Shown: positions 2,139 through 8,820 of the stretch, piece by piece | How positions within the stretch are numbered: the stretch's first letter is position 1 | Layout: every line of letters begins with the position of its first letter | Origin: an uncultured Polymorphobacter sp. | GTDB lineage: Bacteria; Pseudomonadota; Alphaproteobacteria; Sphingomonadales; Sphingomonadaceae | Direction of reading: 5' to 3' | NCBI GenBank assembly: GCA_937871645.1 | Contig: CALMPZ010000325.1 | Span: 1-11,695 of the forward strand | DNA length: 11,695 bases | Position numbers and translations under genes: made by a program | The notes under the pieces: generated by a model | Databases searched by the model: none | What the model was told of the DNA's origin: nothing | Seen by the model: only the letters and a program-made list of their open reading frames with translations

Positions 2139-2789
2139 ATGCCACAAGTCACCATCAACAGGCAAATCGCGCGCCTGCTGATTGCCGCCTCCTTGTTGCT
2201 CGGCAGCGTCTATCCGCTGATCGAAGCGCAGCTCGCGCAATTCGCCGGGCTGGTCCTGAAGGGGTCGTGCGTCGGATTGCTGGCACTGGCCGCGATATTG
2301 TGGGCGCGCAGCACCGACGGCTGGCTGCTTGCCGGTGTCATGGCGGCGGGCACGGCGGGCGACGTGCTGCTCGGCATCAGCTTCGAAACCGGCGCCGCCG
2401 CATTTGGCGTCGGGCACATCCTCGCGATCACGCTCTACCTGCGCAACCGCCAACGTCCGCTCGGCGCGCTGACGCTGGCCATCGTCGCGGCGTTGCTGGT
2501 CGCCGGCGTGGCGCTGCCGCAAATGCTCGTCGCCGGCAACACCGGGCTGGCGGTCTATGCGCTGCTGCTCACCGGCATGACGGCGGCTGCATTTGCCAGC
2601 CGCTTCGACCGCCGCGTACCGATCGGCGCGCTGATGTTCCTCGTCTCCGACGCGCTGATTGCCGTGCGCATGCAGCAGCCGGGGTCAGGCCTCGCGCTCG
2701 GGCTGGCCGTCTGGTGGCTCTATTACTTCGGCCAGTTCCTGATCTTCTGGTTTGTCGCCAAGGCTATTCGGTCGGGTCCGGCGCGGTGA
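2139..2789 (+). CDS. YhhN-family integral membrane protein (lysoplasmalogenase-like)
   Basis: The 216-residue protein is almost entirely hydrophobic, with about seven to eight predicted membrane helices, as is usual for the YhhN family (also called TMEM86). Family landmarks are visible: G-D-V-L-L-G near residue 75, F-G-V-G-H-I-L near 90, and a later [13 protein letters not shown] segment near 165-180; the conserved Asp and His residues are thought to form the active site. Characterised members hydrolyse the vinyl-ether bond of lysoplasmalogens at the membrane. The substrate here is unproven, because aerobic alphaproteobacteria are not generally known for plasmalogens. ATG at 2139 follows AGGAGAG with a 6-base spacer. 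The gene is divergent from the lipoprotein gene and its last 26 bases overlap the end of gyrA. Confidence 0.8.
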
Positions 2790-5517
2790 CGTCGCCGTCA
2801 ACGTCAATGACCGTGCCTTCGATCAACGTGCCTTCATCCGCCGCGTCATCTTCCGACTCGTCGTCGGTGATCTTCGCGGCCGACACAACATGCTCCTCGT
2901 CGGCAACGGTGAACAGCTTCACGCCCTGCGCGCCGCGACCCATGATACGGATCTGGTCGCAACGGATGCGGATCAGCTTGCCCTGGTCGGTGACGAGCAT
3001 CAGCTGGTCGGCATCGGTCGCCGGGAAGCTGGCGACCACCGGCCCGTTGCGTTCCGAATCGGCGATGTTGGCGATGCCCTGCCCGCCGCGCCCTGACTGG
3101 CGATATTCATAGGCGCTCGACCGCTTGCCGAAGCCGTTCGCGGTGATCGTCAGGATGAACTCCTCGGCAGCGGCAAACTGCGCCTGGCGGGTTTCGGAGA
3201 GCACGCGCTCGGCCTCGGCTTCCTTCCATGCGGCGGCCTTCAGGTAATCCTCGCGCTCCTGCGGCGTCGCCTCGAAGCGCTTCAAAATCGACATCGAGAT
3301 GACTTCGTCACCCTTGCCCAGCGACATGCCGCGCACGCCCGTCGAGGTCCGGCTCTGGAACTCGCGCACATCATCGACGGCAAAGCGGATCGCCTTGCGG
3401 CTGCGCGCCGCGAGGAACACGTCATCGCCCTCCTCGCACAGCGCGACGGCAATCAGCCGGTCGGCGTCGCCTTCCTCGAAGCGGATCGCCAGCTTGCCGT
3501 TCGACTGGATGTTGGTGAACGCATCCATCGAATTGCGCCGCACCGAGCCATGCGCGGTGGCGAACATCACGTGCAGGCGGCCCCATTCGGACTCATCCTC
3601 GGGCAGCGGTAGCACGGTGGTGATGGTTTCGTCGTCCGCCAGCGGCAGCAGCTGCTTCATGAAGCGGCCCTTGGCCTGGGGGCTGCTCAGCGGCAGCTTC
3701 CAGACCTTGAGCCGGTAAACCTTACCAGCGCTCGAGAAGAACAACACCGGCGTGTGCGTCATCGCCACGAACAAATTGGTGACGACGTCCTCGTCCTTGG
3801 TCGACATCCCCGACCGGCCCTTGCCGCCGCGGTGCTGCGCGCGATATTCGGACAGTGCGACGCGCTTGATGTAGCCCGTCATGGTGACCGTCACGACCAT
3901 TTCCTCGCGCGCGATCAGGTCTTCGTCATCGATGTCATCGCCGGCGACGACGATCTCGGTGCGGCGCTTGGTGGCGAACTGGTCGCTGACGGCTTCGAGT
4001 TCGGCGCGCAGCACGGCGTACAGGCGTGCGCGGTCACCGAGAATGTCGAGCAGGTCGGTAATCTGCGCCGCGAGTTCCTTGAGCTCGTCGGAGATTTCCT
4101 CGCGGCCCAGCGCGGTCAGCTTCTGCAGGCGCAGGTCGAGAATGGCACGGACCTGAAGCTCGCTGAGCCGGTAGGTATCGGCATAGTCGGCGTCGCCGAT
4201 CGCCAGCGTCGCGGTCGCATCGACCAGCCCGAGATAGGGGCGGATTTCGCCCATCGGCCACTCGCGCGCCATCAGCGCTTCGCGCGCGATAACCGGCGTT
4301 GCGGACGCGCGGATCATCGCCACCACTTCGTCGAGGTTGGCCACCGCAATCATCAGCCCGAGCAGGATGTGGGCGCGTTCGCGCGCCTTGCCGAGCTCGA
4401 ACTTCGAGCGCCGCGTGATGACTTCTTCGCGGAACTTGATGAACGCCTCGATGACGTCTTTGAGGTTGAGCAATTCGGGGCGGCCGCCACGAATCGCCAG
4501 CATGTTGATCGCGAACGATGATTGCGCCGGCGTGTGGCGATAGATCTGGTTGAGCACGACGTCGGACACCGCGTCGCGCTTGAGGTCGAGTACGACGCGG
4601 ACGCCTTCGCGGCTCGATTCGTCGCGGATGTCGCTGACGCCTTCGATGCGCTTGTCCTTGACGGCTTCGGCGAGCTTTTCGACGAGGCTGTTCTTGCCGA
4701 GCTGGTAGGGGATTTCGGTGAGCACGATCGAGCGCCGGTCGCCGCGACCTTCCTCGACGATGGCGCGCGCCCGCATGATGATGCTGCCGCGGCCGGTGTG
4801 ATAGGCGCTGCGCAAACCGGTGGTGCCGACGAGAATGGCGCCGGTAGGGAAATCGGGCGCCGGCAAATGCACCATCAGCTCGTCGATGGTGATCGCCGGA
4901 TTGTCGAGATAGGCGCGGCAAGCGTCGATGACTTCGCCGAGGTTGTGCGGCGGAATATTGGTCGCCATGCCGACGGCGATACCGCCAGCGCCGTTGACCA
5001 GCAGGTTGGGATAGCGCGCCGGCAGCACCGAGGGTTCGGATTCGGAACCGTCATAGTTGTCGATGAAGTCGACGGTATCCTTGTCGATGTCGTCGAGCAG
5101 CTCATTCGCCGCTTTTGCCAGCCGCGCTTCGGTGTAGCGCATGGCGGCGGCCTTGTCGGGGTCCATCGACCCGAAGTTGCCCTGCCCGTCGATGAGCGGC
5201 AGTCGCATCGACCAGTCCTGCGCCATGCGGACCAAGGCTTCGTAGATCGAGCTGTCGCCGTGCGGGTGGTACTTGCCCATGACTTCGCCGACGATGCGCG
5301 CCGATTTGCGGTAGGGCTTGCCGGCGACAAAGCCGCTTTCATGCGCGCCCCACAGGATGCGCCGGTGCACCGGCTTTAGCCCGTCGCGGACATCGGGCAG
5401 CGCGCGCGCGACAATGACGCTCATCGCATAGTCGAGGAAGCTGACACGCATTTCCTTGACGATCGAGACCGGCTTGATGTCGGGCTCGCCCGGAAGCTGC
5501 GATGTCGTTGAATCCAT
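2764..5517 (-). CDS. gyrA: DNA gyrase subunit A
   Basis: GyrA is the breakage-rejoining subunit of DNA gyrase (A2B2), which introduces negative supercoils using ATP hydrolysed by GyrB. The 917-residue protein has the N-terminal topoisomerase domain with catalytic Tyr128 in [10 protein letters not shown] (E. coli Tyr122) and the quinolone-resistance region [10 protein letters not shown] at 84-93. The C-terminal pinwheel domain carries the GyrA box Q-H-R-G-G-K-G at 561-567, which marks it as gyrase rather than ParC. Residue 89 (E. coli 83) is Ser and residue 93 (E. coli 87) is Glu. The protein is slightly longer than E. coli GyrA and ends in an acidic tail ([12 protein letters not shown]...). 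The start gives the normal position of the first helix ([17 protein letters not shown]). Upstream, only AAGG at a 12-base spacing resembles a ribosome site. No clear promoter was resolved. Confidence 0.97.
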
Positions 5518-5628
5518 GAGACTATTTAACCTTGACGTTCAGGCAGATTTCGAACCTCCGCTTCTAGGGGGTTTGCCTGCAAAACGCCAGTTTTTCCGCG
5601 CTTTTGCTGCGCGAAACCGGTGCCGGCG

Positions 5629-5653
5629 GGAACTTTGCAGGCCGGATTGCGTT
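5629..5653 (+). promoter_or_regulatory. EcfG-type (general stress response) promoter
   Basis: GGAAC (5629-5633), 16 bases, then CGTT (5650-5653) is a perfect match to the promoter consensus of the alphaproteobacterial general-stress sigma factor EcfG (GGAAC-N16/17-CGTT). Transcription would begin near 5660, giving a leader of roughly 30 bases before the micro-gene at 5692. Orientation and distance both fit. The identification rests on the consensus match; the sigma factor itself is not in the window. Confidence 0.72.
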
Positions 5654-5677
5654 GAAACCGACATCGGCAACGCAATC
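5645..5677. repeat. Long inverted repeat overlapping the EcfG -10 element
   Basis: GATTGCGTTG (5645-5654) and CAACGCAATC (5668-5677) are perfect 10-bp complements. Inside them CCG (5658-5660) and CGG (5665-5667) pair around a 4-base loop, leaving only an AAA bulge. The left arm contains the CGTT of the EcfG promoter and the right arm ends just before the GAGG ribosome site at 5681. It could be an operator, or a leader hairpin of transcripts starting further upstream. No U-tract follows on either strand, so it is not a classical terminator. Confidence 0.65.
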
Positions 5678-5691
5678 AACGAGGATATATT

Positions 5692-5772
5692 ATGGGCAAG
5701 GGCCTGATCTTATGGATGCTCGGGGTTCCGGGGATCATCGTCATCGGCTGGCTGCTGTTCAACGTCATCTGA
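5692..5772 (+). CDS. 26-residue single-helix membrane micro-protein
   Basis: ATG at 5692 opens a 26-codon frame ending in TGA at 5770-5772. It encodes a basic start (M-G-K-G), then one hydrophobic helix (LILWMLGVPG and IIVIGWLLF) and a short N-V-I end. GAGG at 5681-5684 with a 7-base spacer is a good ribosome site. From memory, small proteins beginning M-G-K-G-(I/L)-L-L-W-(L/M)-L-G-(I/V)-P are widespread and uncharacterised in Proteobacteria, so this is probably a real conserved gene that length filters drop. Its EcfG-type promoter suggests induction in stationary phase or under stress. It would insert in the inner membrane; the function is unknown. It is divergent from gyrA and upstream of the iron-regulated receptor, from which Fur-like sites separate it. 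Confidence 0.72.
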   Translation: MGKGLILWMLGVPGIIVIGWLLFNVI

Positions 5773-5791
5773 ACCGCGGGCGCGACGGTTA

Positions 5792-5836
5792 TTGCGATAA
5801 ATTCTCAATAGTCGTTGCAATTAATAACGACTCTCA
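5792..5836 (+). promoter_or_regulatory. Fur-box-like sites and promoter of the siderophore receptor gene
   Basis: Two 15-base stretches resemble the Fur core TGATAATNATTATCA: TGCGATAAATTCTCA (5793-5807, 9 of 14 informative positions) and TAATAACGACTCTCA (5822-5836, 10 of 14). A possible promoter, TTGCGA (5792-5797), 18 bases, TGCAAT (5816-5821), lies within and between them, so Fur with Fe(II) would block it. A perfect 7-bp inverted repeat, AGTCGTT (5810-5816) and AACGACT (5826-5832), lies across the same stretch. This AT-rich patch stands out from the surrounding GC-rich DNA. Matches are by eye, not scored. Confidence 0.55.
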
Positions 5837-5871
5837 TTAGCGGTGCTGTCAACGCCACTTCCCGGCGCGAC

Positions 5872-5875
5872 AGGA
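5872..5875 (+). promoter_or_regulatory. Ribosome binding site deciding the receptor start
   Basis: AGGA with a 6-base spacer to ATG at 5882. The alternative in-frame GTG at 5843 has no ribosome site, abuts the Fur-like region and would add 13 residues before a normal signal peptide. The ATG is therefore preferred. Confidence 0.75.
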
Positions 5876-5881
5876 TTGCCC

Positions 5882-8119
5882 ATGACATCGACCAGACTCC
5901 CGCTTTCGCTGCGCGCGAGCGCACGTGCCATTCCGATTGCAGCGGCGCTGTTCGCGCCATACGGCGCGGTTGCGGCCGATGACGCCTATGACGATGCCGC
6001 CTACCCGATCATCGTGTCGGCAGAACGCGGCGGCGACAATCCGTTCGCCGACGCAAATGCGCCGTACAAGATCGATCGCCTCGCCTCGGACAAGTTCACC
6101 GCGCCGCTGCTCGATATTCCGCGCAGTATCACCGTCATCCCCCAGGCCGTCATCCAGGACCTCGGCGCCACGACGTTCCGCGAAATCGTCCGTACCCAGC
6201 CCGGCATCACGCTCGGCACCGGCGAAGGCGGCAATGCGTTCGGCGACCGCATCTTCATCCGCGGCTTCGATGCCCGCAACGACGTCTATGTCGACGGGCT
6301 GCGCGACCCCGGCGTCACCAGCCGCGAAGTCTTCGCCGTCCAGCAGATCGAAATCGTCAAGGGTCCGGCGTCGAGCTACGGCGGCCGCGGCACCACCGGC
6401 GGCACCGTCAGCTTCGTCACCAAGGCGCCGCAAAAGGCCGGCTTCGAAGTCTTCGAGGCGACGCTGGGCACCGACAACACCAAGCGCATCACTGCCGACA
6501 TCAACCAGCCGCTCGGGCAAACCGTGCAGGTGCGATTGAACGGCGTCTTCCATGACGCCGATGTCGCCGGTCGCGACGAGGTCTGGACGCAGCGCTGGGG
6601 TGTGGCGGCCGCCATCGCCTGGCAACCCACCGACGAAATCGACTTCGGTGCCGACTATTACCATTTGCAAACCAGCGGCTTGCCCGATTGGGGGGTGCCG
6701 TTCGACAGCCGCACGCAGCAGCCGTTCGATGTGCCACGCGGCAATTTCTACGGCGTCACGGCGCGCGATTTCGCCTCGACCAATGTCGACATCGCGACAC
6801 TGAAGTTCGAAGCCCGCGCCGGCGATTTCTTCACCGTCGACAGCAAGCTGCGCTACGGCTCGAACCTCAATTCATACATTGCATCCGCCCCCGAACGCCC
6901 GGTGACGCCCAACCCCGATCCGGCGCAATGGTTCATCAGCGCCAACCCGAAGAACCGCAACGCCAACGCGCAAACCTATGCCAACGCCACCGATTTCCGC
7001 TTCAACTTCGCCACCGGCAGCGTCGCCCACGCGCTCGTCACCGGCTGGGAACTGACACGCGAGACGGTCACCAATTCGCCGTTCGCGTTCGCCAGCTCCG
7101 AAACCGTCGGCGCACCGATCGTGCCGACAACGCCGGTCTTCCAGAACCTGTGGACCCCAAACCCCGGCCAGCCATGGCTGCTGGCGCGCACCTTGTCGGG
7201 GGTCAGCGCCAACACCAAAGTCGTGTCGAAGGCGGTCTACATCGTCGACACCATCGATCTGTCACCCAGGTGGCAGTTGAGCGGCGGGCTGCGCTACGAT
7301 GACTATCAACTGCGCTTCCACCAGCGCAATCTCAACGGCAGCATTGTCGATCTCGGCAATGACAGCAGCTTCCTCAACTGGAACGCCGGGCTGGTGTTCA
7401 AGCCGGTGCCGGCGGGCACGCTGTATCTGTCGGCGAGCACCTCGTCGAACCCCAGCGGCGAGCAGACCGACGGCAGCGGCGTCGGCTACGGTGGCATCGG
7501 TACCGCCACCGCCAACCTTGACCCGGAAGAAAACGAAAGCTTCGAAGCCGGGGTCAAATGGCAGGTCGCCGACAACAACCTGCTGCTGACGGCGGCGCTG
7601 TTCCGCACCAACAAAACCAACGCCCGCGTCAATGACCCGGTCACCGCGACGATGCAGGTCCTCGCCGGCAAGCAGCGCGTGCAAGGCATCGACATCGGGC
7701 TGTCGGGCAACGTCACGCCGCGCTGGCAGGTCTATGGCGGCTATGTCTATCTCGATGCCAAGATCCTGGAATCGACCAACCCCGCCGAAGTCGGCGCGCA
7801 CTTCCCCAACATTCCCGCGCACAGCGCCTCGGTGCTGAGCACCTATCAGCTGACCGACGCGTTCACTTTCGGTGGCCAGGTCGGCTACACCGGCACACGC
7901 TACGGCGGCACCAACATTGCCGGCACCGCGCATCTGCCGGCCTATTGGCGCTTCGATGCGACGGCGCGCTACCGCTTCAGCCCCAAGGTCGAGGTCCAGG
8001 CCAATTTGCTCAACCTCACCGACGAGCTCTATTATGATGCGATCTACCGCAGCGCCACGCCGTTCGCCTATGTCGCGCCGGGGCGGTCAATGCTGGTGAC
8101 GCTGCGCGTCAACCTTTAG
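5882..8119 (+). CDS. TonB-dependent catecholate siderophore receptor, Fiu/PiuA type
   Basis: An outer-membrane beta-barrel receptor that imports ferric siderophores using energy from TonB-ExbB-ExbD. From the ATG it has 745 residues, about the size of E. coli Fiu. Residues 1-32 are a signal peptide (twin basic region, hydrophobic [14 protein letters not shown] before D-D). A TonB-box-like P-I-I-V-S-A follows at 42-47. The plug domain shows [10 protein letters not shown], then [29 protein letters not shown] and [14 protein letters not shown], the classic order for siderophore receptors. The barrel ends with [13 protein letters not shown]. The gene for a PiuC-type hydroxylase starts 17 bases downstream, the arrangement of piuA-piuC and fiu-ybiX; that context is the main reason for the Fiu/PiuA label. 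It is probably Fur-repressed. The exact ligand is not readable. Confidence 0.88.
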
Positions 8120-8136: not shown

Positions 8137-8820
8137 ATGCTGCTCGCCATCCCCAATGTGCTGTCGCCTGCTCAAGTTGCAGCCTGCGTCGCCGATCTCG
8201 AAGCCGCCGAATGGGCCGACGGCCGCATCACCGCGGGCGCACAGTCGCGCACCGTGAAGCACAATGAACAGCTGCCTGCATCGTCGCCGGTGGCGCAGGC
8301 CTGGGGCGACCGCATCCTCGATGCTCTCGGCGCCGCGCCGCTGTTCGTCGCTGCTGCGCTGCCGCACCGCACCTTCCCGCCGCTGTTCAACCGCTACGGT
8401 CCGGGCCAGTCGTTCGGCACGCACATCGACAACGCCATCCGACCCGTCCCCGGCACCTCGATCAAGCTGCGCACCGACCTGTCGGCAACGCTGTTCCTGT
8501 CCGACCCCGATAGCTACGACGGCGGCGAGCTGCTGATCGAAGATGCCTTCGGCGTGCAGGCGGTCAAGCTCAACGCCGGCGACATGATCCTGTATCCGGC
8601 ATCGAGCCTGCACCGTGTCACCGCGGTAACGCGCGGCGTGCGGCTGGCGAGCTTTTTCTGGGTCCAGTCGCTGGTGCGCGACGACAGCGCCCGCGCCATG
8701 CTGTTCGACCTTGACCAGACCATCCAGCAGCTCGGCAGCGCGCAGGGAATCGATGACGCACATGTCGTGCGGCTGACCGGCATCTACCACAACTTGGTGC
8801 GGCGCTGGGCTGAAAGCTGA
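8137..8820 (+). CDS. piuC: Fe(II)/2-oxoglutarate-dependent hydroxylase, PiuC/YbiX (PKHD-type)
   Basis: This 227-residue cytoplasmic protein belongs to the PKHD-type hydroxylases, which use Fe(II), O2 and 2-oxoglutarate. The iron triad is complete: His96 and Asp98 in F-G-T-H-I-D-N-A, and His159 in S-S-L-H-R-V-T. Arg169 ([13 protein letters not shown]) is placed to bind 2-oxoglutarate. The start [10 protein letters not shown] and the [11 protein letters not shown] stretch are typical of PiuC/YbiX. Length equals the family norm. AAGGA lies 7 bases before ATG, and the gene follows the receptor by 17 bases, so they are almost certainly co-transcribed. Family members sit beside siderophore receptors and affect iron uptake, but their hydroxylation substrate is not established to my knowledge. 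Confidence 0.9.

Follow-up and report, generated by a model that had tools for sequence, protein, structure and literature searches.

A frame of only 26 codons (5692..5772, forward strand) lies in the window, which is the whole 11,695-nucleotide stretch of DNA analysed here. Upstream of it is a gyrA-like frame (917 residues, 2764-5517, reverse strand) and downstream a TonB-type receptor frame (5843-8119), both recognised by inspection; after the receptor comes a frame which by eye resembles a PiuC-type dioxygenase (8137-8820). Annotation usually skips genes this short. Is this one a gene, what controls it, and what would its product do? Our reading, to which we give a probability of roughly 0.6, is that under stress the sigma factor EcfG drives production of a microprotein that tunes or stabilises a larger membrane protein.

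The frame, its relatives and selection

The frame translates as MGKGLILWMLGVPGIIVIGWLLFNVI. Hydropathy of the peptide reaches 2.39 (19-residue window) and its start, MGKG, is basic: judged by sequence, it has a single hydrophobic helix some 20 residues long behind a basic N-terminus, as in a single-pass membrane protein. Homologues, selection and hydropathy all indicate that the frame encodes a single-pass membrane microprotein carrying a W-x-x-G-V-P core, and 5692-5772 is almost certainly a real, unannotated gene.

Searches of 58 other genomes found five full-length homologues with 73-92% identity (E 4e-6 to 6e-9). The other 13 of the 19 matching genomes had matches only inside long frames (E >0.06), and these were taken as chance. 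Among 12 homologues (66 pairs) pN/pS in the 5692-5772 frame was 0.23; the other forward frames gave 0.72 and 4.2, and those of the opposite strand 0.64, 0.50 and 4.5. Differences at codon positions 1/2/3 numbered 384/83/612. Among the frames compared, purifying selection thus appears to fit the microgene frame best. Within the genus, pN/pS was 0.69 and 0.49, on just 3 and 5 changed codons, which are too few to demonstrate selection. The earlier note had called the frame a gene and had looked to its relatives for synonymous-biased change, which the value of 0.23 bears out. One family copy, L031 (in G115, near 360-440), has an in-frame stop within the peptide. An EcfG-type motif is still found upstream of L031, and the stop reflects either decay of the copy or an error in sequencing. 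In the same-genus genome G001, promoter and frame are retained in the alignment and the likeness to the window does not extend beyond the stop codon; the microgene unit is therefore independent of the downstream receptor gene. The AT-rich stretch before the receptor frame (5780-5842), with ATAAATTCTCAATAG and AATAACGACTCTCATTA, resembles by eye a Fur-type iron box.

Profile searches widened the family. A six-row profile matched 49 of 397 genomes of the taxonomic family (own genome included, E <=0.01), the weakest of these matches being partly chance, e.g. one inside a 369-residue frame in G020. A genome scan confirmed 15 loci among 56 candidate stretches, including records of Sphingomonas, Sandaracinobacteroides, Phenylobacterium and Azospirillum. 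With a 25-row profile, again including the own genome, matches were obtained in 22/296 genomes of the order, 61/385 of the class and 46/299 of the phylum (the class and phylum counts at E <=0.01). The widest profile (44 rows) found the microgene in 12 of 127 close relatives; the gene is therefore patchy, not core.

Family peptides have 23-29 residues and a near-invariant W-x-x-G-[VI]-P core. In 100 distinct peptides W is present in 98, G in 99 and P in 100, the glycine is always followed by V or I, and a second proline occurs in 67. The basic column holds K or R in 97 of 100 aligned peptides. In the alignment named A2, a few rows are off register by one codon. The microgene is very probably, on these comparisons, a member of a family spread over various proteobacteria, often with a general-stress promoter.

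No known identity was recovered. Pfam, searched with the window peptide, with 25 A2 members and with 8 more peptides, gave no match above cut-off, nor did NCBIfam for the window peptide and 8 others, and PDB sequences yielded no match up to E 10. Weak family hits, all below cut-off, were set aside (DUF4605, E 0.061; DUF5472, 0.17; Ost4, 0.034; PEF-CTERM, 0.035). For phrog_7867, a phage family of unknown function, 13 of the 44 members gave a match, the best at E 5e-4, but on a second look only 1 of 5 peptides did so (E 0.032), and the family was rejected. A phage gene was likewise rejected: blastn of the window stretch against phages returned 21 records, and the matches listed (E 0.6, 26-30 bases) were taken as chance. 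A tblastn search of plasmids with one 25-residue family peptide found nothing at E 0.1; such a search misses peptides of this length, because plasmid records fetched through the gene neighbour described below do carry microgenes.

A full-text literature search for the peptide motif strings found none. The titles and abstract openings listed for EcfG with small proteins, or for a PhnA-like protein, mention neither the family nor the pair, and no passage located by term search in two Bradyrhizobium papers (PMC5082802, PMC4842269) concerns the microgene family. A stress-induced single-pass microprotein is a known kind of protein; the family and its pairing with a PhnA-like protein look new. The family may already be present, without a name, in large catalogues of small proteins.

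The promoter and the general-stress regulators

Upstream of the frame, on the forward strand, are the -35 element GGAAC (5629..5633) and, after a 16-base spacer, the -10 element CGTT (5650..5653) of an EcfG-type promoter. GAGG at 5681..5684 is a ribosome binding site with the ATG 7 bases on. The coordinates in the earlier note (GGAAC-N16-CGTT at 5629-5653, GAGG at 5681, the frame at 5692-5772) were exact, and the frame runs from ATG to TGA. A transcript would be expected to start near 5660, given the position of the promoter. In the stress regulon of Sphingopyxis granuli the reported motif is GGAAC-N16-CGTT, and GCAAC, CATT and TGTT occur as variants (PMC7083833, excerpt); in Sphingomonas melonis, motifs of this type are concentrated in the 100 bases nearest the start (PMC6599016, excerpt). 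The site at 5629-5653 agrees with the pattern expected of EcfG regulon members, GGAAC-N16/17-CGTT no more than 100 bases from a start codon. A sigma-70-like hexamer pair also appears at 5664-5693, but it runs into the start codon and so could not yield the microgene messenger.

By itself the EcfG match is weak, within chance, and proves nothing. A shuffled window is expected to contain 0.34 matches to GGAAC-N15-18-CGTT, and at least one match occurred in 55 of 200 shuffles. There is no genome-wide enrichment of the motif either: the window genome has 27 sites with a 16- or 17-base spacer and 46 for a backwards control pattern. A lone match is uninformative, and conservation must therefore judge the single site. 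Aligned with G001 and G002, the two genomes of the same genus, the site retains GGAAC and the CGTTGAAAC block, and the first part of the spacer differs. The motif is also found at a similar position before homologues in other genomic contexts. Because it is conserved both within the genus and before homologues elsewhere, the motif at 5629-5653 is more than chance.

The excess before homologues is large. In 45 of 107 distinct loci the strict motif starts 45-85 bases ahead of the ATG, and in 60 a loose form does, against 4 and 21 of 7496 other ATGs of the same loci. This count leaves out the chance matches L007-L019, the locus with the in-frame stop (L031), one in an odd frame (L056), duplicates, and matches with E >1e-5, L077 and L079 among them. 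A stricter set of 90 non-redundant upstreams also drops L055, L127, L128 and L132, taken as non-Alphaproteobacteria, and any upstream shorter than 120 bases or with a common 16-base word. In these 90, the strict motif occurs in the same range in 38, a form with any NGTT in 52, and a form with GCAAC or CATT also allowed in 61; the corresponding counts at control ATGs (n=6275) are 4, 18 and 30, in a comparison that does not model phylogeny and in which the retained upstreams have no 16-base word in common. L058, with GGAAC-N17-CGTT just beyond the allowed range, was scored as a miss. That the strict motif is some 660 times as frequent before homologues as before control ATGs (38/90 against 4/6275) answers the earlier note's call for promoter conservation in relatives and upholds its assignment to EcfG, and from these sequence comparisons the microgene is most probably EcfG-driven.

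Even the relaxed motif is lacking in 29 of the 90 upstreams, and 7 of these 29 are loci linked to the neighbour gene described below; EcfG control is therefore common, not universal. In three genomes of genus g2 (L029, L033 and L034) the loci have a common family member without an upstream EcfG motif, and control of the microgene seems to differ there. Many homologues have purine-rich stretches, seen by eye, at the position of the ribosome site.

The window genome (G000, a draft of 657 contigs) gave no NepR or EcfG match, and only sub-threshold matches to PhyR domains; NepR was searched for in this genome only. G001 has PhyR above cut-off with an adjoining full EcfG-like sigma gene. G002 also has PhyR above cut-off, together with a match to residues 2-73 of the G001 sigma protein that is 88% identical and apparently truncated by a contig end. 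A gap in the draft is a likelier cause of the missing PhyR, NepR and EcfG in G000 than true absence. The EcfG-like gene of G001 (L137 309-1115, reverse strand) is one 269-residue frame whose first ~75 residues resemble, by eye, an NepR-type anti-sigma segment, and the matches to this protein in G006, G011 and G013 extend into the NepR-like part. Pfam detected sigma domains only in the G001 protein. A fused anti-sigma/sigma protein would be unusual, if that is what it is.

A recurrent membrane-protein neighbour

Clustering of the genes around 106 loci revealed one dominant common neighbour, a membrane protein of ~300 residues (PhnA-like protein), whose gene adjoins the microgene in 17. The microgene comes first in 14 of these, the partner first in 2, and in 1 they lie on opposite strands. 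The set of 106 also omits L002-L006, L020, L021, L023, L028 and L059, nearly all duplicates of kept loci, the exception being L006, of which no copy was kept. The PhnA-like neighbour is absent at 89 of the 106 loci and in the window, where the microgene does not lie directly beside such a gene. A profile search of the window genome, run with no positive control, found no PhnA-like match; the same profile gave matches in the class sample, and G000 was empty again.

In that class sample (n=385), 35 genomes have both genes, 26 the microgene only, 12 the partner only and 312 neither (Fisher p 4e-23, kinship ignored); the partner search scored at most 5 candidates per genome and may miss some. The gap between the two matches is <=136 bases in 15 of the 35 genomes with both, and 1755 in one more.

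Plasmids carry the pair as well. Nine plasmid loci reached through the partner were chosen for organism diversity among the matches listed (overlapping sets of 63 and 64 records), and in 8 of them the microgene is beside the PhnA-like gene: Ensifer, Aminobacter, two Rhizobium, Variovorax, Pandoraea, Pantoea and Paraburkholderia, spanning Alpha-, Beta- and Gammaproteobacteria. At the Bosea plasmid locus the PhnA-like gene has no microgene beside it. The six plasmid gene tables available, which are incomplete, list no coding feature at the microgene. Stress-type genes were noticed near some of these loci: CsbD (L157), manganese catalase (L160) and ferritin-like proteins (L155, L159).

The PhnA-like protein is itself poorly described. 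Among the PhnA-like proteins (L083-L132, L152-L160), the six tested matched no Pfam or NCBIfam family above cut-off, and no PDB sequence matched better than E 0.086. Relatives numbered 7545 among 8000 scored candidates, and the public names among the 120 relatives listed are mostly hypothetical protein, with some PhnA-like protein. An AlphaFold model was poor (mean pLDDT 60.7) and contained helices only. This uncharacterised neighbour is a concrete partner candidate, and the pairing may help explain both proteins.

Proposed mechanism and alternatives

We infer the following course of events. Under stress EcfG would bind at 5629-5653, and a short messenger would start near the position predicted above. 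The 26-residue peptide translated from it would be inserted in the inner membrane as one helix, with the basic N-terminus MGKG probably on the inner side and the helix bent or packed by the W-x-x-G-V-P core. The helix would then dock on a larger membrane protein, tuning or stabilising it. In some family members this partner is likely the ~300-residue PhnA-like protein encoded by the adjacent gene; in the window lineage, where that gene was not found, the peptide would have a different partner or a direct effect on the membrane. A role in modulating or stabilising a larger membrane protein fits best because the helix is stress-made, its proline core is near-invariant and a membrane protein is its repeated neighbour; taken alone, this part of the explanation is about an even bet. 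It is possible, somewhat short of even odds, that the microprotein and the PhnA-like protein form an unrecognised proteobacterial stress module of which the helix is an essential subunit, and that stand-alone copies were captured by EcfG and re-used on another partner.

The main rival is that the stress peptide, like YohP or like DinQ and TisB, acts on the bilayer with no fixed protein partner, lowering membrane potential and fluidity and slowing metabolism. Its size, single-helix character and stress promoter agree with such action, as do the loci without a PhnA-like neighbour (the window and 89/106), and YohP and DinQ are reported to act on membranes (PMC12719787, PMC3567139, excerpts). However, the near-invariant W, G and P suggest specific packing and the pairing with one membrane protein is repeated, and we regard the bilayer as an unlikely sole target. 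That the transcript serves as a regulatory RNA or leader, with the peptide incidental and the frame a by-product, is highly improbable. The unit is short, and no terminator-like stem is found in 5500-5960, as might suit an RNA, but selection matches a protein in one frame, the protein is retained where flanking DNA and neighbours differ, and no Rfam family reached its gathering score in the window. As for a chance open frame next to a chance promoter match, the shuffled-window frequency of the motif and its lack of genome enrichment would permit it; against this stand the homologues in many genera, the frame-fitting selection and the motif kept upstream of homologues, and these comparative data leave the chance reading with negligible probability, refuted in practice.

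Known systems resemble the proposed partner-binding microprotein in different respects. TisB and DinQ are short hydrophobic stress peptides of the type I toxin class, whose members are silenced by antisense RNAs that overlap them or diverge from them. DinQ depolarises membranes (PMC3567139, excerpt). Unlike these two, the microgene family has a fixed motif and a gene neighbour; the check for an antisense RNA was the Rfam search, which covered the window only. YohP of E. coli (27 residues) lowers membrane potential and fluidity (PMC12719787, excerpt), and it and similar stress-induced small membrane proteins share with the microprotein a length of ~27 residues, one helix and a link to stress (PMC12719787, PMC7549839, excerpts). 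What sets the family apart from YohP, to which it is likened by description only, is the W-x-x-G-[VI]-P core and, often, the EcfG-type promoter. AcrZ (of AcrB) and KdpF (of the Kdp pump) are single helices that bind a larger membrane protein; the KdpF gene lies beside the gene of its partner, and that of AcrZ apart. For AcrZ, such binding is described in an excerpt of PMC7267776. In contrast to both, again likened by description only, the candidate partner here is putative and itself uncharacterised.

Many genera carry this very short gene, frequently downstream of a stress promoter, and alphaproteobacterial stress regulons may therefore miss a member that is invisible to gene-based transcript tables. 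One candidate relative is SEP6 of Sinorhizobium meliloti, detected by ribosome profiling, with fewer than 30 residues and one predicted helix; it is conserved in Hyphomicrobiales, and tagged SEP6 was found in the membrane/ribosome pellet (PMC10117765, excerpt). By that description SEP6 is like the microprotein in size and in its single helix, and it may be a member of the family.
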